Assembly: GCF_900129505.1 (NCBI RefSeq)
Contig: NZ_LT670818.1
Coordinates: forward strand, 2,666,001-2,730,000
Direction: 5' to 3'
From: Bradyrhizobium erythrophlei
GTDB lineage: Bacteria > Pseudomonadota > Alphaproteobacteria > Rhizobiales > Xanthobacteraceae
Length of the DNA: 64,000 nt
Position numbers and translations under genes: made by a program. How positions within the stretch are numbered: the stretch's first letter is position 1; the number at the start of each line of letters is the position of its first letter. Below, one piece after another: positions 49,198-62,277 of this stretch. Under the pieces are notes generated by a model. The model did not search any database. It was not told the origin of the DNA and was given only the letters and a program-made list of their open reading frames with translations.

Positions 49198-49950
49198 CTA
49201 CGCGCCCGCCCGCCGCAGCGCTTCCGCGACGCTCACGACCGGGATCTTGCGGCGTGACGCCGCTTCCAGCGCATGGCGCAGCATGATCGGCGAGCATCCG
49301 TAAGGGCTGGGCGCGGCCCGGACGTCGTGGCTATAGAAGATCAGCCAGCCGTCTTTGGCGACGGCCTCGTCGAATGCGCGATCTATACCCTCGCGGTCGA
49401 TATTGGTTTCGATCAGGGGTGTGGAGCGCAGGAACTGCAGGTCGATGGCACCGCTGTTGACACCGGGAAGAATGCCGCGGGCGGAACGGAACGCCTTGCC
49501 GAGCTGCCGCTTGTGCGACACCGATGCGAAGCCGTAGGGATAGGCGAAATTCTCAATTCTGATCGAAGGCTCGAGCGCCAGGAAATAACGGCGGTTCTTC
49601 TCCATCTCCAGCGTCATCGCCGCGGCGTCGAGGTCGGTCGCCCTTGCGTGCGAAAAGGTGTGGCAGGCGACTTCGTGGCCCTTGCGGTGAAGGTCAACGA
49701 TTTCATCGGCGCTGACGCCGGTCCAATGGCCTTGCCACCGATCGACCAGTCCGCCGGCGATATAGAACGTTCCCCGCGCGCCGTATTCTTCCAGGATCGG
49801 AGCCCCGGCCGTGGCTGCGCTTTTCGGAACGTCGTCGAAGGTAAAGCTGACCATCGGGCCAGTGCCCTTCAGCTGAAACGGCGCAGGGCGAAAATGCCGG
49901 GCCAGGCGGTTGCTGACGCGTGCTCTTAATGCAGACCAGGCCGGATGCAT
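49198..49950 (-). CDS. Polysaccharide deacetylase (NodB homology, CE4)
   Basis: A 250-residue protein with the NodB homology motifs: TFDDVP (Asp39, Asp40; metal-binding and catalytic Asp), HTFSHA (His97 and His101, HxxxH metal site), YPYGF, and late WLIFYSHDV with the catalytic-type His. No clear signal peptide, so it may act in the cytoplasm like NodB. It probably removes N-acetyl groups from GlcNAc-containing glycans. No other glycan gene adjoins it in the window. Confidence 0.88.
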   Translation of the reverse strand: MHPAWSALRARVSNRLARHFRPAPFQLKGTGPMVSFTFDDVPKSAATAGAPILEEYGARGTFYIAGGLVDRWQGHWTGVSADEIVDLHRKGHEVACHTFSHARATDLDAAAMTLEMEKNRRYFLALEPSIRIENFAYPYGFASVSHKRQLGKAFRSARGILPGVNSGAIDLQFLRSTPLIETNIDREGIDRAFDEAVAKDGWLIFYSHDVRAAPSPYGCSPIMLRHALEAASRRKIPVVSVAEALRRAGA

Positions 49951-50128: not shown

Positions 50129-51142
50129 TCAGCGTCGTAACGACCTTCGCGCACCTTGCGATAGATAGTGGAGCCAGTTCTTGAAGATCGCGGTGGCCGC
50201 GGCTCCGGCCGCGTTGTCCTGCCGAAGGGTGCGGTCGGGCAGTTCGACGCTCAATCCGGGCCTGCGTTCGACCCGCGCCCGTTGCTCGAAGCGAAGAAGA
50301 CTCTGTTCGGTTTCGGCGTCGAAATAGCCGACAGGCAAGGCCGGATAGGTGTCGCACTGGCCGGCGAGAAAGCGCGAGATGTCGCGCAAATATTCCCGCT
50401 CTAGCGAGAGCGCGTCATATTCGGGATGTCCCTGGAAAAATACGAATTGGCTGCCAAGCTGTTTGGCGAAGATATCGACGCCGGCTTCCGGCGAAGTAGT
50501 CAGCAGTTGATAGCCGCGCGCGGCCAGGTCGTCGGCGCGCAACTCGTTGAGGCGCGAATGCGAGATCTTCAGCGGCGACGGCGCATCCCCTGTCAGCCAG
50601 TGATCGGTCACTTTGGCGCAGTCATAGATCCCGGAACATTTGGCATCGAGTCGCCGCCGCTCGATGCCGTCGAGATGCAACACCGCGGCATGGGCGGCGA
50701 GGCACGACCAGATCGTCGAGCGGGTGTTGGCCTGCGCCCAATCGACAATATCTGTGAGCTCTCGCCAGAACGGTTCTTCCGGAAGCGTCGCGGCGATCGG
50801 TTCGGCGCCAGTAACGATCAATCCGTCGAGCTGCAGGCGGTCCAGGTCGGCGATGTCGGTATATTGCTTTTCGACCCGCCACTGCGAGGTCTGCGATCTC
50901 GTGACCGAAGGCAGCGAGAAGCAGTGGAAGTCGATGCGAATATCGCCGGCGGCTTGTCTCAGCAGACGCATGAACTGACGTTCGGTCGCCTGCAGCGCCG
51001 CATCCGGCATGTTGTTGACGAGCCCGATCGTGAGATCCACATCGGCATGTTGCGGACGGCCGAATTTATCCTCGCGCCGCAACTGCGTCGGCGCGAGGCC
51101 GGGACTGACGATCAGCCGCCGTTTTTCCAACAGGACGGTCAT
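50129..51142 (-). CDS. metA: Homoserine O-succinyltransferase (MetA family)
   Basis: A 337-residue enzyme activating homoserine for methionine synthesis. The catalytic Cys147 lies in TIWSCLAAHAAVLHLDGIER; the His/Glu partners are in FVFFQGHPEYDALSLEREYL; LIVTGAEP is the usual oxyanion region. The sequence belongs to the MetA/HTS fold, but whether it uses succinyl- or acetyl-CoA depends on a single residue and cannot be stated safely. It follows the sulfhydrylase gene by 18 bp on the same strand, so both steps (activation and sulfhydrylation) are co-transcribed. Confidence 0.88.
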   Translation of the reverse strand: MTVLLEKRRLIVSPGLAPTQLRREDKFGRPQHADVDLTIGLVNNMPDAALQATERQFMRLLRQAAGDIRIDFHCFSLPSVTRSQTSQWRVEKQYTDIADLDRLQLDGLIVTGAEPIAATLPEEPFWRELTDIVDWAQANTRSTIWSCLAAHAAVLHLDGIERRRLDAKCSGIYDCAKVTDHWLTGDAPSPLKISHSRLNELRADDLAARGYQLLTTSPEAGVDIFAKQLGSQFVFFQGHPEYDALSLEREYLRDISRFLAGQCDTYPALPVGYFDAETEQSLLRFEQRARVERRPGLSVELPDRTLRQDNAAGAAATAIFKNWLHYLSQGARRSLRR

Positions 51143-51160: not shown

Positions 51161-52465
51161 CTATTCCGCGGCCTCGAGCCGCTGGTGCCGGCTGCATGCC
51201 TGCGCCAGCGCCTGGTCGATATCTTCAATGATGTCCGAAGAATGTTCGATGCCGATCGACAACCGGATGGTTTCCGGCAGCACGCCGGCCAGGCGCTGCT
51301 GTTCCGGAGACATCTGGCGGTGGGTGGTCGAAGCGGGGTGGCAGGCGAGCGATTTCGCGTCGCCGATATTGACCAGCCGCGTGATCAGTTTCAGGGCATC
51401 GTAGAATCGCTTGCCGGCCTCCATGCCGCCCTTGATGCCAAAGGTGAAGAGCGACGACGCGTTGCCGTCCAGATATTTCTGGACCAGTGCGTAATAAGGG
51501 CTCTCAGGAAAACCCGCGTAGTTGACCCAATCGACGCGCGGATCATTGCGCAGAAACTCGGCAACCTTGCGCGCGTTCTCGACATGCCGTTCGACGCGCA
51601 GGGCGACGGTCTCGATTCCCTGCAACAGCAGGAAGGCATTGAACGGCGAAAGCACCGAGCCCATGGTGCGCTGATAGACGCTGCGCGCGCGCTGGATATA
51701 GGCGCTGGTGCCGAATTGCCTGGTGTAGACGAGGCCGTGGTAGGATTCGTCGGGCTCGTTGAAGGTGGGGAAGCGGCGCGCGTTCTCGGTCCAGGGGAAA
51801 CGCCCGCTGTCGACGATCGCGCCGCCCAGCGTGGTGCCGTGGCCGCCGAGAAATTTCGTCAGCGAATGAATGGCGATATCGGCGCCGTAATCGAAGGGCT
51901 TCAGGAGGATCGGGGTAGCGACGGTATTGTCGACCAGCAGCGGCACGCCATGACGATGCGCGACTTTCGCCAGCGCCTCGATGTCGCAGACATTGCCGGC
52001 GGGGTTGCCGATCGTCTCGGAGAACACCGCCTTGGTATTTTCGTCGATCAGCCTTTCGATGGCGTCGGCCTTGTCGCTTTCGGCGAAACGGGCGGTGATA
52101 CCCTGGCGCGGCAGGATATGGCCGAGCAGGGTGTGCGTGGTCCCGTAGAGCTGCGGCACGGAGACGATGTTGCCGCCGGTATCGGCAAGGTTAACGAGCG
52201 CGAAATGCAGCGCCGCCTGACCGCTGGCGACCGCGAGCGCGCCGACGCCGCCCTCCAGCTCGGTGACGCGCTTTTCCAGAACCGCGGTGGTCGGGTTCGA
52301 AATCCGGCTATAGCGAAAGCCTTCGGCCTCGAGATTGAACAGGGCGGCGCCGTGATCGGCGCTGTCGAAGGCGTAGGCCGCTGTCTGGTAAATCGGGACC
52401 GCAACAGACTTGGTCGTCGGATCGGGTTCGTAGCCGGCGTGAATGGCGATAGTCTCGCTGCGCAT
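51161..52465 (-). CDS. metY: O-acyl-homoserine sulfhydrylase (Cys/Met metabolism PLP enzyme)
   Basis: A 434-residue PLP enzyme of the gamma family making homocysteine from O-acylhomoserine and sulfide. The PLP lysine is K204 in HSLTKFLGGHGTT, SGQAALHFA binds the phosphate, and the C-terminus has RLSIGIEHSSDIIEDI. Length (about 430) and insertions fit MetY rather than MetB/MetC (about 390). ATG 52465 has GAGGTGG 4 bases upstream. It is the first gene of a metY-metA operon. The 146-bp leader was examined for SAM-II and SAM/SAH riboswitch consensus; none was recognised. Confidence 0.92.
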   Translation of the reverse strand: MRSETIAIHAGYEPDPTTKSVAVPIYQTAAYAFDSADHGAALFNLEAEGFRYSRISNPTTAVLEKRVTELEGGVGALAVASGQAALHFALVNLADTGGNIVSVPQLYGTTHTLLGHILPRQGITARFAESDKADAIERLIDENTKAVFSETIGNPAGNVCDIEALAKVAHRHGVPLLVDNTVATPILLKPFDYGADIAIHSLTKFLGGHGTTLGGAIVDSGRFPWTENARRFPTFNEPDESYHGLVYTRQFGTSAYIQRARSVYQRTMGSVLSPFNAFLLLQGIETVALRVERHVENARKVAEFLRNDPRVDWVNYAGFPESPYYALVQKYLDGNASSLFTFGIKGGMEAGKRFYDALKLITRLVNIGDAKSLACHPASTTHRQMSPEQQRLAGVLPETIRLSIGIEHSSDIIEDIDQALAQACSRHQRLEAAE

Positions 52466-52611: not shown

Positions 52612-53550
52612 TCAATTGCCGAGCGTGCGGCGGACCTGCTCGCCGATCTGATGCAGCACCAGCCGGCCCTGCGGCAGGATCGCGCCGATGGCGTGGAAAT
52701 TATGGATCATGCCGTCGTGGCAGAAATGTTCGACCTGGACACCCGCCGCGACGAGCTTTCCCGCATAGGCGTTGCCTTCGTCGCGCATCGGATCGAATTC
52801 GGCGGTATGGATAATGGCTGCGGGAAGCCCGGCGAATCTGATGGCGCGGAGCGGCGAAATCCGGGGATCGGCAAGGTCGGCGTCGCCGTGCAGATAGTCG
52901 GCGAGGTCGGCTTCCAGCGTCACCCGGTCGAGCAGATGATTTTCGGCGAATGCCTCGCGCGACGGCGAGGTGTCCTCGAAATCGAGTACCGGACAGATCA
53001 GGCATTGCGCGGCTATCGCAGGCCCGGCGTTGCGCATGCTCTCCTGGCAGACCACGGCTGCGAGCGTCGCGCCCGCGGAATCGCCGCCGACCACGAGCCT
53101 TGTCGCATCGATGCCAAGCGAGGCGGCCTGTTCGGATACCCAACGGGTCGCTGCGATCGCATCCTCGATGGCCGCCGGAAACTTGTGCTCGGGCGCGAGG
53201 CGGTAATCGATGGAGACGAGCCGGCAGCCGGTGCTCTGCGCCAGCGTCGCGGCGATGCGGTCATGGGTGTCGATGCTGCCGGCGACCATGCCGCCACCAT
53301 GGAAGAACACAAAGCCTGGCAAGGTCTCGCTCGCATCATCCGCCGGCGTGTAAAGCCGGTAAGGGAGATCGCCCGCCGGTCCCGGCAATACGCCGTCGAT
53401 CCAGCTTGCCGCCGCGACGTCGGCGCGGACGAACTGCATGAGTTTTGTCAGCGCCTGGCGGCGTTCATCCACGGTCGGTCGCGACCGATTGCTCGGCGAG
53501 GCCGCCGCCATCATGACGAGCAAACGCTTGGCCAGGGGATCGAGGGGCAT
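52612..53550 (-). CDS. Alpha/beta hydrolase, hormone-sensitive-lipase family
   Basis: A 312-residue esterase/lipase-like enzyme. The oxyanion motif is FFHGGGMV (HGGG at residues 84-87), the nucleophile is Ser158 in GGDSAGATLAA, and Asp and His candidates are in EFDPMRDEG and HDGMIHNFH. This is the complete HSL-family pattern, so activity is expected on short acyl esters. ATG 53550 (MPLDPLAKR) has GGAG 6 bases upstream. It is divergent from the aminotransferase gene. A role as thioesterase in the carrier-protein pathway nearby is possible but not shown. Confidence 0.88.
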   Translation of the reverse strand: MPLDPLAKRLLVMMAAASPSNRSRPTVDERRQALTKLMQFVRADVAAASWIDGVLPGPAGDLPYRLYTPADDASETLPGFVFFHGGGMVAGSIDTHDRIAATLAQSTGCRLVSIDYRLAPEHKFPAAIEDAIAATRWVSEQAASLGIDATRLVVGGDSAGATLAAVVCQESMRNAGPAIAAQCLICPVLDFEDTSPSREAFAENHLLDRVTLEADLADYLHGDADLADPRISPLRAIRFAGLPAAIIHTAEFDPMRDEGNAYAGKLVAAGVQVEHFCHDGMIHNFHAIGAILPQGRLVLHQIGEQVRRTLGN

Positions 53551-53704
53551 AGCGGGCTCCGGTTGCGGGAATGTAGTGTCCAATTGTGGTCTATCAATCG
53601 TGAATTGACCGCTATTGCCCAAAATCCGGCAAGGAAATCCTTAAGAGGATTTCGACAATAGTAGCGCCGATGTGCGCGGCATCGCCGCGCTTTGGATGGT
53701 GATC

Positions 53705-54577
53705 ATGGTCCAGACGATAGCTCCCGTCAGTTTTTCGCAGACCTGGACCTTCTTTGAAGGCGCCTGGCATGACGGCAACGTGCCGATCATCGGTCCCCGG
53801 ACCCATGCGGCATGGCTCGGCTCGACCGTGTTCGACGGCGCGCGCGCCTTCGAAGGCGCGGCGCCCGATCTCGACCGGCACTGCGCCAGGGTGAATCAGT
53901 CGGCCATCAACTTCATGCTGAAGCCGGTGGTCGATACCGAAACCTGGCTGGGGCTGGCGCGCGAGGGCATCGCCCGCTTCGATGCCAATGCCGAGCTCTA
54001 CATCCGGCCGATGTATTGGCCGCAGACCGGCAGCGGCGGCGGCGTGCTGTTCGATCCCGAGACGACCAACTGGTGCCTGTGCATCTATGTCGCGCCGATG
54101 CCGCCGCCGACCGGCAGCGCCATCACGCTGTCGCCATTCCGCCGGCCGACCATGGAAACCGCGCCGGTCGATTGCAAGGCGGCCTGCCTCTATCCCAACA
54201 ACTCGCGCGCGCTGATGGAAGCGCAGTCGCGCGGCTTCGACAACGCCTTGATGCTCGACATGCTCGGCAATGTCGCCGAATTCGGCAATGCGAACGTATT
54301 CATGGCGAAGGAGGGCGTGGTCTACACGCCGGCGCCGAACGGCACCTTCCTCAACGGGATCACCCGGCAGCGGGTGATCGACCTGTTGCGCGGCGATGGC
54401 GTCAGCGTGGTCGAGAAGACCCTGCGATACCGCGATTTCCAAACCGCCGACGAAATCTTCTCCAGCGGCAACTTCGCCAAGGTCGCGCCGATCATCCGGA
54501 TCGACGATCGCTCGCTGCAGCCGGGGCCGTTCTACAGCCGCGCCCGCAAGCTGTACTGGGAATTTGCGCGCGGCTGA
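53705..54577 (+). CDS. Class IV aminotransferase (branched-chain amino acid aminotransferase-like)
   Basis: A 290-residue PLP enzyme of fold type IV. The PLP lysine is Lys158 (PVDCKAACLYPNNSRAL), followed by the conserved E-A-x-x-x-G-F-D-N-A-L-M-L-D pattern and AEFGNANVFMA. The substrate loop SGNFAKVAPI replaces the usual GTAA phosphate-binding version, so the amino acid used may differ from classic IlvE. ATG 53705 (MVQTIAPVSF) is chosen among close in-frame starts. It lies between the hydrolase and the minus-strand carrier-protein ligase operon, and could serve the same pathway. Confidence 0.85.
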   Translation: MVQTIAPVSFSQTWTFFEGAWHDGNVPIIGPRTHAAWLGSTVFDGARAFEGAAPDLDRHCARVNQSAINFMLKPVVDTETWLGLAREGIARFDANAELYIRPMYWPQTGSGGGVLFDPETTNWCLCIYVAPMPPPTGSAITLSPFRRPTMETAPVDCKAACLYPNNSRALMEAQSRGFDNALMLDMLGNVAEFGNANVFMAKEGVVYTPAPNGTFLNGITRQRVIDLLRGDGVSVVEKTLRYRDFQTADEIFSSGNFAKVAPIIRIDDRSLQPGPFYSRARKLYWEFARG

Positions 54578-54721
54578 TCGGCACGCGTCATCGCTTACGC
54601 CTGACGCCGTTGATCACGAGCTGTTCGACCAGCGCGGCGGCGGTTCGGCTGGGAGTATGCTTGTGCATCCGATATCCCTCGAGGTTGTTGCGGCCGCCTG
54701 ATTGACGAGACGGCAAACGGC

Positions 54722-55600
54722 CTAAGGCCCGTACAGTACTAATTCGGTGTCGGTCAGGTCGGCCAGGCGGGGCCGGCGCGGGCCCTTGAAATATTTGCGG
54801 CCGCGCGCCCGCGAGAAGATGCCGGTGAGACCGGCGACCGGCCCATTGGCATCGAGAATGACGGAAATCTTGCCGTGCCGGATCAGGGCCCGGCCGATCG
54901 AGCCCGCGCATGCGACGAATTCGGCGACGTCGCGGCAATAGATCAGCTGCATCGCCGGCGGCGCGATCAATCCGCGGCGGATGCGCATCGGCGACAGGAT
55001 GAACGGAAACGGTCCGCCGCCGGGCGTGCGGCACGCCAGGCTGAGGCAGCCATAGCGCGCGTGTCGCGCCAGCAATTCGACCTCGTTCCCGGGCAGGCCC
55101 TCGACAGCCCCGGTATCCGGCGCGATCGTCTCAATCGTCATGCCCCGCGCGGCGCGCGACAGCACCGGGATCGAGAAGAACAAGCCGCTGCAATACGAGG
55201 AAAAACCCTGCGCCTCGATGATCGGCCAGGTCCAGGTCGCGGGGCTGATATTGAGGTAGGTGACGTCCTTGTGACGCTGCGCGATTTTCGTCAACATCGG
55301 TGCGTAATTGCGGAACGCGGGATCGACATACCAGCTCGAGAGGTTGCACCGGATCGCCGCGTCGCCGCCGTCGCTCCTCGCCGTGTAGAGCAGCAGCAGG
55401 ACGCCGGCCACGGCGCCGTCATGGTCGAGCATATAGCCAAAACGGGGATAGCCGCCTGGGACTTCGCGCACCGCCTGGCGGCGCAGCCCCTGCATCCAGT
55501 AGTCGCGCGACCTTCCGACGAACCCGCGTGTCAACAGATCCGCCACCGCATCAAGATCGGCGGCGGAAATTTCACGGCATCGAAGTGTCGCAGTGTGCAC
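54722..55600 (-). CDS. GNAT-like acyltransferase linked to amino acid:carrier protein ligase
   Basis: A 292-residue protein. The first 150 residues look like a GNAT fold (CREISAADLDAVADLLTRGF, then HDGAVAGVLLLLYTA in beta-4, then LSSWYVDPAFRNYAPMLTKI, which corresponds to the acyl-CoA-binding region). The second half may be another GNAT-like domain. It starts with GTG 55600, 22 bp after the ligase stop, so it is the last gene of a three-gene operon with the flavoprotein and ligase. It is a candidate for transferring the aminoacyl group from the carrier protein to an acceptor; acceptor unknown. Confidence 0.7.
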   Translation of the reverse strand: MHTATLRCREISAADLDAVADLLTRGFVGRSRDYWMQGLRRQAVREVPGGYPRFGYMLDHDGAVAGVLLLLYTARSDGGDAAIRCNLSSWYVDPAFRNYAPMLTKIAQRHKDVTYLNISPATWTWPIIEAQGFSSYCSGLFFSIPVLSRAARGMTIETIAPDTGAVEGLPGNEVELLARHARYGCLSLACRTPGGGPFPFILSPMRIRRGLIAPPAMQLIYCRDVAEFVACAGSIGRALIRHGKISVILDANGPVAGLTGIFSRARGRKYFKGPRRPRLADLTDTELVLYGP

Positions 55601-55622
55601 CGCCGCCTACCGATCGCATCCG

Positions 55623-56561
55623 TTATTTGTGGCCGAGCGCCTCCCGCACCGCGGCCGGCCACTTGGCGACATCGGTGCCATGGGTGTGGAACATGGCGAC
55701 CGCGAGCCGATCCATCCCGAACGCGACGCAGCCGGTATGCGCCGGCTCGCCATTGGCGTCCTTGATGTCCCAGGTGGTGCCGAAATGGTCGCGGTGGTAG
55801 TTGAAGCTCATGCACGCGGTCGGCCGCTCTTCCGAGCGCAGCGGAATCAAGAGTTCGAACTTCAGCGACTGCTGCTTCTGGCTGACCGCCTTCATCTGGC
55901 CGACGCGGCCGAAGAAGGGATCAGAGGCATAATCGACCTTGAAGGTCAGGCCGAGATCGCGCGCGATGGCCTGGGCGCGCACCATCCAGCGCTCGCGGAA
56001 ATCGGATACGTCTTCGGGGCTGCCGATGCAGACATATTCGCGCATCCGGAACGACTGCAGCCGGTCGAGATGGCGCGACGGCTCGGCGCGGAAGCAGTCG
56101 GCCGCGACGTCGAAGCGCAGGCCACCTTTGGGCAGCGCGCCGCGCGCGGCCGCGATCGGATAGACGGGATAGCAGGCCGCCGGCGACAGTACGAGGTCGG
56201 CGGGCGAGAGCGACGTGGTCCAGTCGCCACCGGCGTCGAAGCGGCTGACCGCGGAATTGATCTCGCGCTCGGTGCCATGCAGGCCGCAGACGCAGCCGAG
56301 GAGGTTGGGAAAGCTGTTCAGATAGCCGGATTTCTCCAGCTGGCCACGGTTCATCACCGGCGGGAAGCGCATCACCTCGGTATCGGGTTCGCGATTGCGC
56401 GTGATCAAGGCGGCGAGCCGATCGACCATGTCTTCGTAGAGCGCGGTGCGGGCGTAAACGCCGTCGGTTCCCATCTTGTGGAATAATTTATTGGCGAGGT
56501 GATCGAGCGGGTCGGCCGGCTGGGTGGCTTCCGGCGACGGGCTTCGGACAGCTATGTTCAT
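55623..56561 (-). CDS. Amino acid--[acyl-carrier-protein] ligase (seryl-tRNA-synthetase-like)
   Basis: A 312-residue class II synthetase catalytic core without a tRNA-binding arm. Motif 2 is FRAEPSRHLDRLQSFRMREY and motif 3 is TGCVAFGMDRLAVAMF. The zinc ligands are Cys130 (PAACYPVYP), Glu175 (FRMREYVC) and Cys278 (HTGCVAFG), at nearly the same numbers as in the characterised Bradyrhizobium enzyme (131, 176, 279 from memory). Such ligases activate glycine or alanine with ATP and load it on the phosphopantetheine of a small carrier protein, not on tRNA. The partner carrier protein is encoded at 58181-58468. Operon: flavoprotein, ligase, GNAT-like, with gaps of 31 and 22 bp. Confidence 0.93.
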   Translation of the reverse strand: MNIAVRSPSPEATQPADPLDHLANKLFHKMGTDGVYARTALYEDMVDRLAALITRNREPDTEVMRFPPVMNRGQLEKSGYLNSFPNLLGCVCGLHGTEREINSAVSRFDAGGDWTTSLSPADLVLSPAACYPVYPIAAARGALPKGGLRFDVAADCFRAEPSRHLDRLQSFRMREYVCIGSPEDVSDFRERWMVRAQAIARDLGLTFKVDYASDPFFGRVGQMKAVSQKQQSLKFELLIPLRSEERPTACMSFNYHRDHFGTTWDIKDANGEPAHTGCVAFGMDRLAVAMFHTHGTDVAKWPAAVREALGHK

Positions 56562-56592
56562 GTTCGGCGTTCCCGGTTTTCTTGTTTGTTGA

Positions 56593-57819
56593 TCAATCGC
56601 GCAAGGTCGTGGGCACGCCGCTCATCAGGCTTGCGGTCGCGATATTGGCGAGGATGCGGTCGTTGTTGATCATGATCGGCGCCGACAGCACGTCGCGCAG
56701 ATGTCGGCCGATGCTGAAGTCGCCGTCGTTGCGATATCCCGACAGGCCGCAGGCGCGCATCGCGCTCATGACGGTCGCCACCGCGAGTTCCGAAGCCTCC
56801 ACCTTCAAAAGGTTGATCTGGGACTGGAAGTCGAGGGAGGACAGCGCCCGCTCGTCATGCTCGTGGGTCAGATAGGTATCGAGATTGGTTGTGATCATGG
56901 CGCGCAGCTTTGCGAGCGACATTTTGGCGGCGGTGAAATGCGCCGCACCCGGCGGCATCTGGCCGCCGGCCCCGCGGGCGGCTTTCCGGATGAACAATTG
57001 CGCGCGCTCGACGGACGCTGCCGCGATCCCGGCCCAGGCCGAGGACCAGGAGAGATGCGCGACCGGTGTCATCGTCTGCGCGTGAATCTTGTCATAGGCT
57101 TCGGGGAAGATCTGTTCGGCGGTGCCCTTGAACTTCAGCTCGAAGCCGGCGCTGCAGGTTCCGCGCATGCCGAGCGTCTCCCATGCGAGGCTGGGCTCCA
57201 GCGTGTAATTGTCCCTGGTAATCGCCAGCAGCACCTGGTCGGAGCCGGCGGCGTCATTGGCGCGGCGCGCGATGGTGACGATGCCGTCCGCCTGCGCGCC
57301 GTATGAAATCACGGTGGCGTTGCGAGCCAGCGAGATCTCGGTGCCGGCGTGCTCGACGGCGGCGGTGGAGAAACGGATGTTGCCGCCGTTTTGTCCTTCG
57401 GTGGTTGATGACGCCAGCAGCATCTGCCCGGCCGCCGCGCGACGCATCAGCGTTTCGTGCCAGGCCGAGCCCGCGCCGTGGCGGACCAGGCAGGCGACCT
57501 TGGTCTGATGCATCGCAAAGATCATCGCTGTCGACGCACAGGCGCGGCCGAGCGTGTAGCACATGTCGGTGATATCGGCGACCGATGCGCCGTCGCCGCC
57601 GAACGCGAGCGGGATCTGGACGCCCAGCAGCCGCTGCGCGCGCATCGCGTCGAGCGCTTTCTGCGGGAACCGCGCATCGCGGTCGACCGCTTCGGCTTCC
57701 GCGGCGGCGACCGCCGCAACCGTAGCCGTTCGCAGCGGGAAGGAACTCCGGTCGGGAATGAATTGTTCGCTGATCCTGTCCGCAACGGCGTTGCGTAGTC
57801 TGGTCTCCCGCATGTTCAT
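56593..57819 (-). CDS. Acyl-CoA dehydrogenase-like flavoprotein of the carrier-protein locus
   Basis: A 408-residue protein of the acyl-CoA dehydrogenase fold. Helical N-terminal domain (FPQKALDAMRAQRLLGVQIP, FGGDGASVADI), beta domain (LASSTTEGQNGGNIRFSTAA; WETLGMRGTCSAGFELK), helical C-terminal domain (VMSAMRACGLSGYRNDGDFS, then LRDVLSAPIMINNDRILANI). Where typical members have the catalytic Glu in an Y-E-G-T motif, this protein reads SAPIMINNDRI, so the usual base seems absent. FAD use is likely. By analogy to prolyl-carrier-protein oxidases of prodigiosin-type pathways, it may oxidise an aminoacyl group bound to the carrier protein; this is inference. ATG 57819 or 57813 (MNMRETRLR). Confidence 0.82.
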   Translation of the reverse strand: MNMRETRLRNAVADRISEQFIPDRSSFPLRTATVAAVAAAEAEAVDRDARFPQKALDAMRAQRLLGVQIPLAFGGDGASVADITDMCYTLGRACASTAMIFAMHQTKVACLVRHGAGSAWHETLMRRAAAGQMLLASSTTEGQNGGNIRFSTAAVEHAGTEISLARNATVISYGAQADGIVTIARRANDAAGSDQVLLAITRDNYTLEPSLAWETLGMRGTCSAGFELKFKGTAEQIFPEAYDKIHAQTMTPVAHLSWSSAWAGIAAASVERAQLFIRKAARGAGGQMPPGAAHFTAAKMSLAKLRAMITTNLDTYLTHEHDERALSSLDFQSQINLLKVEASELAVATVMSAMRACGLSGYRNDGDFSIGRHLRDVLSAPIMINNDRILANIATASLMSGVPTTLRD

Positions 57820-58180
57820 GGCCGATATGCCTTTTAGGGGTTCTGTCGGTGCGAAACACCTGCGCGGGCTTCGCGCAATGCCACATCGATCGCTTGAACA
57901 GCTTCCGATCAAGCGTCAAGGCTAAGGATTTAATTCAAATGCGTCGACGAAATTCGGGGTAAACGACATTCGTTTCGGCGATGAAAGTTAATCCGCGGTT
58001 TTTTCGATGTCTCGTTTTCTGGCGATCGCCGTTAGCGTTAAGAACCGAATGACGGCCTCGCTCAAACGAGATTCATTGTTCTTCAAAGGCTCGTGGAATT
58101 ATAGATGGGCGTGGTAACAGCCGGTTTTGGCGGCGCAGTTTGATGCGATGGCGCATCGGCGCGACAGGTGGGAATTGAAG
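57820..58180. promoter_or_regulatory. Divergent control region of the carrier-protein locus
   Basis: A 361-bp gap between the minus-strand flavoprotein-ligase-GNAT operon and the plus-strand carrier protein gene. It is AT-richer around 57920-58080 and must hold both promoters. No specific operator motif could be assigned, but the divergent layout suggests coordinated expression. Confidence 0.5.
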
Positions 58181-58468
58181 ATGCAGGCGTTTAACCCCCA
58201 CGTCTTTAGCGCGAATGTCGGGGATCGCATCCTTGCCCTCGTCAGGGCAATCCTCGAACAGAACGCGATCGCGGCCGACGTGCGGCCGAACTCGCGGCTG
58301 GTGGATGTCGGGCTGACCTCGATGGACATGGTCAATCTGATGCTGTCGGTCGAGGCTGAATTCGATTTCACGATTCCGCAAGACCAGATCACGCCGGAAA
58401 ATTTTCAGTCGGTGAAAACGCTGGAAGCGATGATCGCCGGCCAGCTGCAGCCCGAAGCGGCGGCTTGA
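58181..58468 (+). CDS. Acyl/aminoacyl carrier protein
   Basis: A 95-residue four-helix carrier protein (MQAFNPHVFSANVGDRILAL...). The phosphopantetheine site is Ser47 in LVDVGLTSMDMVNLML (G-L-T-S-M-D). Acidic residues after it (EAEFDF) form the usual helix II interaction face. An AGGTGGGA site lies about 7 bases before the ATG. Its position opposite the ligase operon matches Bradyrhizobium loci where the ligase aminoacylates the neighbouring carrier protein. The C-terminus is short and polar. It should need a phosphopantetheinyl transferase encoded elsewhere. Confidence 0.92.
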   Translation: MQAFNPHVFSANVGDRILALVRAILEQNAIAADVRPNSRLVDVGLTSMDMVNLMLSVEAEFDFTIPQDQITPENFQSVKTLEAMIAGQLQPEAAA

Positions 58469-59373: not shown

Positions 59374-59553
59374 ATGAGCGACGAGCCCTACAAATCCTGG
59401 CAATGCCGCACCTGCGGTTACATTTATGACGAGGGAAAAGGCGACCCGGATGAAGGCCTGGCGCCGGGCACAAGATGGGCCGCGATTCCGGACGACTGGA
59501 TTTGTCCGGAGTGCGGCACGCCCAAAGGCGACTTCGACATGGTTGAGCTTTAG
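59374..59553 (+). CDS. Rubredoxin
   Basis: A 59-residue one-iron electron carrier. The iron ligands are in WQCRTCGYIYDEGKGDPDEG (CxxCGxxYd) and WICPECGTPKGDFD (CPxCG), with the typical spacing of about 30 residues between pairs. Length and motifs are standard for aerobic rubredoxins that serve alkane hydroxylases or other oxygenases. The ATG 59374 start (MSDEPYKSW) gives the family N-terminus. No oxygenase or rubredoxin reductase lies nearby, so the partner is unknown. Confidence 0.95.
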   Translation: MSDEPYKSWQCRTCGYIYDEGKGDPDEGLAPGTRWAAIPDDWICPECGTPKGDFDMVEL

Positions 59554-59657
59554 CATTCGATTCCGCCTCGAGTCTCCGGCCCATTGGAGAGCCGAAATAC
59601 AATGGTCGTGCTTCATCGCCAGGATGAGTAGTGCTACGAACGGAAAATGGAGACGGC

Positions 59658-60536
59658 ATGACGAAGGCGATCCTGGGTATCATCGGCGGTTCCGGCATTT
59701 ACGATCTGCCGGGCCTTGAGAACGTGCGCGAGGAGGCGATCGCGAGCCCGTGGGGCGAGCCGTCGGCGCCCGTGCGCCACGGCACCATCGCCGGCCTGCC
59801 GATCGTGTTCCTGCCGCGCCACGACAAGGGCCACCGGCTGTCGCCGTCCGACATCAATTACCGCGCCAATATCGACGTGCTCAAGCGCGCCGGGGTCACC
59901 GACCTGATCTCGCTGTCGGCCTGCGGGTCGTTCAAGGAAGAGCTGCCGCCCGGCACCTTCGTGCTGGTCGACCAGTTCGTCGACCGTACCCACAAGCGCG
60001 AAAATTCGTTCTTCGGTAAAGGATGCGTCGCCCACGTCTCGATGGCGCATCCGGTGTCGCCGCGGCTGCGCATCCACCTTGCCGCGGCCGCCGAGGCCGA
60101 GGGCATCGCGATCGCGCGCGGCGGCACTTATCTGTGCATGGAGGGGCCGCAATTCTCCAGCTACGCCGAAAGCATGACCTACAAGAACCTGGGCTACTCC
60201 GTGATCGGCATGACCAACATGCCGGAGGCAAAACTCGCCCGCGAGGCCGAGATCTCCTACGCGACAGTGGCGATGGTGACGGACTTCGATTGCTGGCATC
60301 CCGACCATGATGCCGTGACGGTGCAGGACATCATCCGGGTATTGACCACCAACGCCGACAAGGCCAAGGGCCTGGTGGCGCGGCTTGCCAAGGATTTCCC
60401 GCGCCAGCACGAGCCGTGTCCCAACGGTTCGGACCGCGCGCTCGACACCGCCATCATCACCGCGCCGGAAGCGCGCGATCCCGCGCTTTTGAAAAAGCTC
60501 GACGCGGTGGCGGGAAGGATTTTGCGGGAGCGATGA
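59658..60536 (+). CDS. mtnP: S-methyl-5'-thioadenosine phosphorylase
   Basis: A 292-residue PNP/MTAP-family enzyme that splits 5'-methylthioadenosine with phosphate into adenine and 5-methylthioribose 1-phosphate. N-terminal ILGIIGGSGIYDLPGL is the phosphate-binding start; FLPRHDKGHRLSPSDINYRAN holds the P-R-H motif; GTYLCMEGPQFSSYAES and GMTNMPEAKLAREAEI are the substrate-binding region, and TDFDCWH carries the Asp that binds adenine. ATG 59658 has GGAG 5 bases upstream. It is followed by a SnoaL-like gene and mtnA. Confidence 0.95.
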   Translation: MTKAILGIIGGSGIYDLPGLENVREEAIASPWGEPSAPVRHGTIAGLPIVFLPRHDKGHRLSPSDINYRANIDVLKRAGVTDLISLSACGSFKEELPPGTFVLVDQFVDRTHKRENSFFGKGCVAHVSMAHPVSPRLRIHLAAAAEAEGIAIARGGTYLCMEGPQFSSYAESMTYKNLGYSVIGMTNMPEAKLAREAEISYATVAMVTDFDCWHPDHDAVTVQDIIRVLTTNADKAKGLVARLAKDFPRQHEPCPNGSDRALDTAIITAPEARDPALLKKLDAVAGRILRER

Positions 60537-61167: not shown

Positions 61168-62277
61168 ATGAAGGTCGACGGCAGGCATATCCGCAGTATC
61201 TGGCTCGAGCCCGACGGCGCGACCGTCAGCGCGATCGATCAGCGCCGGCTGCCGCACCATTTTGCGGTGGAGCGGCTGACGAGTTGCGACGCCGCGGCGG
61301 ACGCGATCAAGTCCATGCTGGTGCGCGGTGCGCCGCTGATCGGCGCGACCGCCGCCTTCGGGATGGCGCTGGCGATGCGGGCCGATCCCTCCGACGCCGC
61401 GCTCGATCGCGCCTATCGAACGCTGATCGCGACGCGGCCGACCGCGATCAACCTGAAATGGGCGCTGGACGAGATGGCCTCGCTGCTGCGGCCGCTGCCG
61501 CCGTCGGACCGGACCGCGGCGGCCTATTCGCGCGCCGCCGAGATTTCCGAGGATGACATCGCCATCAACCGGGGCATCGGCGAGCACGGCATTGCGCTGA
61601 TCAAGGCGATTGCCGCGACCAAGAAGCATGGCGAGCGCGTCAATGTGCTGACCCATTGCAACGCCGGCTGGCTCGCCACCGTGGACTGGGGCACCGCGAC
61701 GGCGCCGATCTATCTGGCGCACGACAGCGGCCATGCCGTCCATGTCTGGGTCGACGAGACCCGTCCGCGCAACCAGGGTGCGTCGCTGACCGCCTGGGAG
61801 CTCGGCCATCACGGCGTGCCGCACACCGTGATCCCCGACAACACCGGCGGCCATCTGATGCAGCACGGGATGGTTGATCTCGTCATCGTCGGCACCGACC
61901 GTGTCACCGCCAATGGCGATGTCTGCAACAAGATCGGCACGTATCTCAAGGCCCTCGCCGCGCATGACAATGGCGTGCCGTTCTATGTGGCGCTGCCGTC
62001 GCCGACGATCGATTTCTCCGTCGCCGACGGGATTGCGGAAATTCCGATCGAGCAGCGCGGGCCCGACGAAGTGACCGATATGACGGGGCGCACCGCCGAT
62101 GGGCGGATCGAGACGGTACGGATCGTGCCGGACGGTTCGCCGGTCGCCAATTACGGGTTCGACGTGACGCCGGCGCGGCTGGTGACGGGATTGATCACCG
62201 AGCGCGGCGTGCTCAAAGCGAACCGCGCAGCGCTCGCAGCCGCCTTTCCCGAGAGAAACGCGACCGCGGCCGAGTAA
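61168..62277 (+). CDS. mtnA: S-methyl-5-thioribose-1-phosphate isomerase
   Basis: A 369-residue aldose-ketose isomerase (eIF2B-like fold) converting 5-methylthioribose 1-phosphate to the ribulose form. Catalytic Cys164 ([17 protein letters not shown]) and Asp244 ([19 protein letters not shown]) fall almost where Bacillus subtilis MtnA has Cys160 and Asp240. The N-terminal [18 protein letters not shown] and middle [12 protein letters not shown] motifs are family hallmarks. It is followed 16 bp downstream by the class II aldolase/dehydrogenase fusion, suggesting one operon for the next steps. Confidence 0.96.

Follow-up and report, generated by a model that had tools for sequence, protein, structure and literature searches.

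We analysed a 64,000-nucleotide stretch of the Bradyrhizobium erythrophlei genome (contig NZ_LT670818.1, positions 2,666,001 to 2,730,000; hereafter the window), in which genes for an amino acid:[carrier protein] ligase, a dedicated carrier protein, a flavoprotein and a tandem GNAT-fold protein lie side by side, and we consider it probable (roughly 0.8) that these genes belong to one larger pathway extending beyond the four of them. An initial annotation of the window had proposed the four genes as a pathway in their own right; the coupling of ligase, carrier protein and flavoprotein was borne out, as was that of the GNAT gene within this clade, but the four appear to be only part of the unit. 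Its further parts would include a MetA-like homoserine O-acyltransferase (HTS) and an O-acetylhomoserine sulfhydrylase-like enzyme (OAHS), encoded 2-5 kb from the ligase locus, and an operon-like FATP-ACP2-AMP-ligase-SDR run located 0.85 Mb from the window locus in the same genome (9.18 Mb, single contig). All four originally described genes were found in place and in the compact divergent arrangement claimed for them, with gaps of 31 bases (flavoprotein/ligase) and 22 bases (ligase/GNAT) between the minus-strand genes and the carrier-protein gene on the opposite strand. Listed with HTS and OAHS, they are:

54722..55600, minus strand: tandem GNAT-fold protein, 292 amino acids, probable acyl or aminoacyl transferase (AlphaFold2 model and Foldseek)
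55623..56561, minus strand: amino acid:[carrier protein] ligase, 312 amino acids, Bll0957 orthologue (NF005479, PDB 3MEY)
56593..57819, start taken at MNMRET, minus strand: flavoprotein of acyl-CoA dehydrogenase fold lacking the canonical catalytic Glu (PF02771 and PF00441)
58181..58468, start taken at MQAFN, plus strand: dedicated carrier protein, Ser47 phosphopantetheine site (PF00550, PDB 4H2S_C)
50129..51142, minus strand: MetA-like homoserine O-acyltransferase (HTS), divergent sequence (PF04204, NF003776)
51161..52465, minus strand: O-acetylhomoserine sulfhydrylase-like pyridoxal phosphate (PLP) enzyme (OAHS; TIGR01326, 610 bits)

Conservation and co-inheritance of the gene set

A contig scan with the ligase alignment returned at least 497 relatives, the best 80 of which were analysed as loci. 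Because the best-scoring relatives were kept, this sample leans towards the window's own clade: the best-matching loci are almost all from Bradyrhizobium, and 43 of the 80 come from Bradyrhizobium, Rhodopseudomonas or a Bradyrhizobiaceae metagenome-assembled genome. Short contigs count as misses. The neighbourhood is conserved across these loci, with the ligase in 80, the flavoprotein in 79, the carrier protein in 74 and the GNAT gene in 55; the first three occur together in 74 loci, a co-occurrence that exceeds chance, and in 72 of those 74 the carrier-protein gene is divergent from the other two. Beyond this core, OAHS occurs in 34 loci, HTS in 33, AMP-ligase and FATP in 31 each, and ACP2 and SDR in 29 each, followed by SnoaL (16), a thiamine pyrophosphate (TPP) enzyme (12) and a PLP decarboxylase (12); a selection of 25 of the 80 loci had first brought up the families FATP, PLP decarboxylase, cupin and flavin reductase. 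The wider set recurs in the 17 loci longer than 18 kb from outside Bradyrhizobium and Rhodopseudomonas, where OAHS is found in 15, FATP, AMP-ligase and an alpha/beta hydrolase in 14 each, ACP2 and SDR in 13 each, HTS in 11, GNAT in 8 and the TPP enzyme in 7.

The distant genes were followed by searching the same 198 genomes of the family for the ligase, AMP-ligase (E 1e-100), HTS (E 1e-40) and GNAT (E 1e-100, eight weaker matches excluded), a sample that overlaps the 80 loci (L164 = L094, L171 = L024; L006 of the class sample = L092). The ligase was found in 31 genomes (30 over cut-off plus G449, where the gene is split across contig ends; weak matches in G300, G302, G380, G443 and G474 were excluded), AMP-ligase in 24, HTS in 25 and GNAT in 25, with all four in 22; Fisher p values for co-occurrence range from 4e-19 to 5e-30, uncorrected for relatedness. 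Within the window's genus, the same eight of 11 sampled genomes hold all four genes and three (G393, G410, G426) hold none, and in seven of those eight the ligase, HTS and AMP-ligase occupy three separate sites, which either fall on different contigs or are separated by 0.38 Mb or more.

Nine genomes have the ligase and no AMP-ligase: six have a DUF1839 gene adjoining the ligase, two (G301 and G370) have neither, and one, G356 (66% complete), lacks GNAT as well. The six genomes with flavoprotein-ligase-DUF1839 loci (L162, L163, L166-L169) do not appear in the match lists for AMP-ligase, HTS or GNAT, and such loci, without homoserine-type genes, are a second use of the same module; no DUF1839 match was found at 49-64 kb of the window.

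Several observations weigh against assigning all of these genes to one pathway. A single gain or loss would yield the 8/3 pattern seen in the window's genus. HTS occurs without the ligase in G403 and G413, GNAT in G333, G402 and G403, and AMP-ligase in G402 and G403; the G403 assembly is 88% complete and retains the rest of the cluster, and G402, G333 and G413 hold only part of the gene set. GNAT is present in fewer than half (8/17) of the long loci outside Bradyrhizobium and Rhodopseudomonas, and of the 31 loci that represent the window's type in Bradyrhizobium, 28 have no HTS or OAHS in the fetched flanks; in the seven such genomes of the 198-genome sample, HTS was located elsewhere. The window itself has no intact TPP-enzyme gene 3' of the GNAT gene, and the NCBI model NF003776 labels this type of HTS as plain MetA.

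Loading of the carrier protein

The loading step counts as known because both proteins have counterparts in a solved pair from Bradyrhizobium, Bll0957 for the ligase and aminoacyl carrier protein 1 for the carrier protein. The ligase, which is the sole match to its family in the host genome, scores 481 bits against the NF005479 cut-off of 357 and matches PDB 3MEY (Bll0957) at E 4e-188, while the carrier protein matches PF00550 and PDB 4H2S_C ('Aminoacyl carrier protein 1', E 2e-36). The ligase has no tRNA-binding domain, and its match to the archaeal seryl-tRNA synthetase model, which is 518 positions long, is confined to positions 308-506. The triplet Cys130/Glu175/Cys278, which we take to be the zinc ligands that the initial annotation described as intact, is invariant across seven aligned sequences. 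Likewise, the Ser of the GLTSMDM segment is residue 47 of the carrier protein, as annotated, when the start is placed at MQAFN; a longer mechanical open reading frame begins at 58127.

The ligase family is reported, at second hand, to load Gly or Ala on a carrier protein (PMC5370406), and by orthology the window pair would do the same. The carrier protein also matches the AmcB model of cispentacin-type pathways, but below its cut-off, and that type of pathway was rejected because it loads 2-oxoglutarate through its own adenylating enzyme, AmcH (PMC10698177). In B. diazoefficiens the tags bll0957 and bll0958, the latter annotated as an acyl-CoA dehydrogenase, are consecutive, and both are listed at 3.0-fold, and as raised in transcript and protein alike, for a phaR mutant at 0.5% oxygen (PMC10888616, Table 1). 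The available part of that paper does not count them among the seven direct targets of PhaR that it names as new. Judging by tag order and annotation, bll0958 should be the window flavoprotein's orthologue.

The flavoprotein and its catalytic residues

The flavoprotein passes the cut-offs of PF02771 and PF00441, and both Pfam and a structure search assign it the acyl-CoA dehydrogenase fold. In an alignment with paralogues from the same genome, however, the MCAD-type catalytic Glu position is Ile385 and the IVD-type position is Ala255, followed by His256 (numbering follows row 1 of alignment A2 and runs one ahead of a Met-based count). Of 30 paralogues, 16 were recovered, and the positions were set only by those with a readable motif, which carry Glu at the MCAD position in L115, L131, L134 and L140 and at the IVD position in L116, L117 and L125. 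Alignment A2 holds 22 of the 80 flavoprotein sequences, the window's included, and together with 14 further rows amounts to 35 distinct sequences because L094 and L164 denote a single locus; none has Glu at either position, and every row of A2 keeps His105, His256 and Trp259. Because both canonical catalytic Glu residues are missing, standard alpha,beta-dehydrogenation is unlikely. As for the initial proposal that this protein oxidises the aminoacyl thioester, simple dehydrogenation is doubtful with both bases missing.

PDB profile matches of the flavoprotein include nitrososynthases, DszC and prolyl-carrier-protein dehydrogenases, and the structure search does not separate dehydrogenase from oxygenase. 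Nitrososynthases and the DszC/TdsC monooxygenases (3MXL, 3M9V, 3X0Y, 5XDB), which are not known to carry the dehydrogenase base, resemble the flavoprotein in fold and profile; they differ in that the window family mostly matches PF00441 (20/22, against 3/22 for PF08028, which the window protein does not match), a lean that weighs against a plain monooxygenase, and in that a flavin reductase gene (PF01613) occurs in only 2 of the 80 loci. Those two genes, beside the flavoprotein gene in L086 (2537-3088) and inside the cluster in L078 (4690-5349), are a hint of a two-component oxygenase.

Alternatively, the flavoprotein could be an ordinary FAD dehydrogenase with a displaced base, acting on the aminoacyl-carrier protein in the manner of the prolyl-carrier-protein dehydrogenases and ColB1 (4IRN, 5ZW0, 7XP7), which share its fold and whose entry names point to carrier-bound amino acid substrates. 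The missing Glu is by itself no proof of a non-dehydrogenase because one paralogue, L122, also lacks both. The likeness to these enzymes is nevertheless one of profile and fold, the Glu is missing at both canonical positions in every one of the distinct sequences aligned, Gly has no beta carbon, and a reductase gene accompanies the cluster, albeit in only two loci, so that we regard this alternative as somewhat unlikely.

Candidate transferases and the acceptor

The tandem GNAT protein has no Pfam or NCBIfam match, and its best PDB sequence match is no better than E 0.36. The GNAT-like character assigned to it at the outset is instead supported by structure comparison: an AlphaFold2 model of the 54722..55600 protein (pLDDT 90.8) matches tandem GNATs, with Foldseek hits to the GNAT 2OZG (E 3.6e-9), Eis 3RYO (7e-7) and N-myristoyltransferase 6MAZ (2e-6), and with no FemX-like or LuxI-like entry among the structure matches listed. 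The CoA loop of GNATs follows the motif R/Q-x-x-G-x-G/A, and the corresponding segment, read by eye, is FRNYAPM in the window and FRGQGSP in L061. On the strength of the model, the protein is a probable acyl or aminoacyl transferase, and as a candidate off-loading enzyme it competes with the MetA-like acyltransferase.

The latter, HTS, is the sole match of its kind in the host genome (PF04204, 227 bits; NF003776, 436 bits against a cut-off of 358). Its SCLA and GHPEY segments, which presumably carry the active-site Cys and the His/Glu of MetA, are kept in 32 of 32 family sequences, whereas the TGAPVE segment of the solved MetA structures 2H2W and 2GHR is replaced in all 32, which suggests that this family has a different acyl donor or acceptor. 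The absence of a Lys from the MP segment was considered too but set aside, since 4 of the 32 sequences have a Lys close by and the alignment is gapped there. OAHS lies no more than 500 bases from HTS in 24 of the 27 loci that hold both and adjoins it in all eight of the regions L188-L195. One of these, L195 (G413), has a cupin gene alongside the HTS-OAHS pair and no ligase, AMP-ligase or GNAT match, a case of either pathway loss or an independent role. Adjoining HTS in the window is a further possible member:

49198..49950, minus strand: polysaccharide deacetylase (PF01522, 73 bits)

All seven HTS regions fetched from Bradyrhizobium (L188-L194) have a deacetylase next to HTS-OAHS; it could possibly free a sugar amine as acceptor, and it favours an acceptor of that kind.

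The ligase neighbourhood was called a candidate undescribed pathway in the initial annotation; 'undescribed' is too strong. A neighbourhood that combines a StRS-paralogue ligase with genes for an ACP and a redox enzyme, the conserved open reading frame Atu2574 and glycosidase/liposaccharide genes was described in 2010, with a modify-then-transfer model in which the aminoacyl group passes by amide transfer to a sugar amine (PMC2922099, section 17). The window system shares the ligase, ACP, redox enzyme and proposed transferase with that of Iyer et al. 2010 as presented there, but has a tandem GNAT, a MetA-like enzyme, OAHS and a separate AMP-ligase operon in place of Atu2574 and the glycosidase/liposaccharide genes.

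We assign the Atu2574 protein to DUF1839, a presumption of our own. Members of DUF1839 have been placed among papain-like folds (PMC10318531). In line with the 2010 proposal for the Atu2574 type, the ligase system could stand alone, aminoacylating a surface sugar or lipid amine, with the OAHS genes and the AMP-ligase operon representing separate metabolism in the same lineages. The six DUF1839 loci, with no AMP-ligase, HTS or GNAT matches, and the deacetylase adjoining HTS in the window and in its fetched relatives fit this account. Against it, OAHS, FATP, AMP-ligase and SDR lie near the ligase in most of the long outside loci, the separately located genes are co-inherited, the deacetylase accompanies the ligase in just 5 of the 80 loci, and no glycosyltransferase occurs among the scanned window proteins; we judge it unlikely. 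Less likely still is that the HTS/OAHS pair merely makes homocysteine for methionine, since although HTS passes the MetA model NF003776, OAHS passes TIGR01326 and the pair stands alone in G413, the host genome has a MetX-like protein elsewhere (485 bits, below a cut-off that all control genomes also miss), TGAPVE is replaced throughout the family, and 173 of the 198 genomes have no HTS match at E 1e-40.

Proposed pathway and relation to known systems

Taking the genes as parts of one pathway, we propose that the locus represents one section of a carrier-protein-based route to an amino-acid-derived molecule or surface modification. The ligase would load Gly or Ala on its own carrier protein, as shown for the orthologue, and the flavoprotein would then alter the tethered aminoacyl group, with oxygenation or imine-type oxidation likelier than alpha,beta-desaturation because both canonical dehydrogenase bases are gone. 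The tandem GNAT or the MetA-like acyltransferase might pass the modified group to an acceptor, for which there are two candidates, an alcohol of the homoserine type and a sugar amine that the adjacent deacetylase would free. OAHS, as a member of a family that acts on O-acylated homoserine, could supply or extend a C4 amino acid. Activation of a second acid would fall to the FATP-like ligase, to AMP-ligase with ACP2 or to both, and the SDR would reduce it. In the window genome the pathway would be split between the ligase locus and the operon 0.85 Mb away, and in relatives DUF1839 would replace the GNAT/MetA-like set. We favour this full mechanistic statement only slightly over its negation, and its chemistry, acceptor and product are deduced from gene content. 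A more specific version, in which the MetA-like enzyme and OAHS attach N-oxygenated carrier-bound Gly to homoserine at its gamma carbon or hydroxyl and the GNAT adds an acyl group from the distant FATP/AMP-ligase operon, would define a new class of glycine-homoserine natural products made by a pathway spread over two or three loci, but is highly speculative.

Two known pathways offer leads only. Rhizobitoxine synthesis uses OAHS-type chemistry on homoserine. In the azaserine pathway (compare PMC10445470), a carrier-bound glycine-like acid is joined to a hydroxy amino acid. As a point of difference, no nonribosomal peptide synthetase gene was noticed beside the window locus. The work on Bll0957 and aminoacyl carrier protein 1 (3MEY, 4H2S), whose proteins are sequence orthologues of the window pair, ends at loading and, in the portions available, gives no wider gene set (PMC9437257, PMC5370406). 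The open-licence literature, in which few searches were aimed at homoserine genes, yielded no account of the wider set of homoserine-type and AMP-ligase genes; this set and its co-inheritance with the ligase seem to be new.

Neighbouring genes

The remaining genes around the locus are as follows:

52612..53622, minus strand: alpha/beta hydrolase (Abhydrolase_3), recurrent neighbour (PF07859; 29/80 loci)
53672..54577, plus strand: class IV aminotransferase, recurrent but weaker neighbour (PF01063, NF009896; 16/80 loci)
54588..54668, minus strand: TPP-enzyme gene remnant, 26 codons (full length 3' of the GNAT gene in relatives)
59398-59553, plus strand: rubredoxin domain gene, between the carrier-protein and phosphorylase genes
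59631-60536, plus strand: phosphorylase-superfamily gene, 3' of the carrier-protein gene
61168-62277, plus strand: IF-2B family gene, 3' of the carrier-protein gene

The TPP-enzyme gene is intact 3' of the GNAT gene in the Rhodopseudomonas relatives L045 and L088, and full length also in L074. We take the phosphorylase-superfamily gene to be methylthioadenosine phosphorylase (MTAP)-like and the IF-2B family gene to be MtnA-like; 31 loci, which all belong to a single Bradyrhizobium type, have such genes close to the carrier-protein gene, against none of the 49 others, and because of this confinement they were kept as synteny only. The SnoaL gene of the window was also set aside as not linked, having no match in the 43 Bradyrhizobium/Rhodopseudomonas loci, and the rubredoxin gene has no copy in the 80 loci (tblastn, E 1e-5). 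A promoter and terminator scan returned fewer sites than shuffled sequences did.

Implications

The physiological role of the ligase has been called unknown (PMC9437257). Because a larger gene set is co-inherited with the ligase, partly elsewhere in the genome, that role becomes testable: the set gives a defined list of genes and intermediates through which the ligase may act, and it presents ligase, carrier protein and flavoprotein as a module coupled to at least two different transferase systems.

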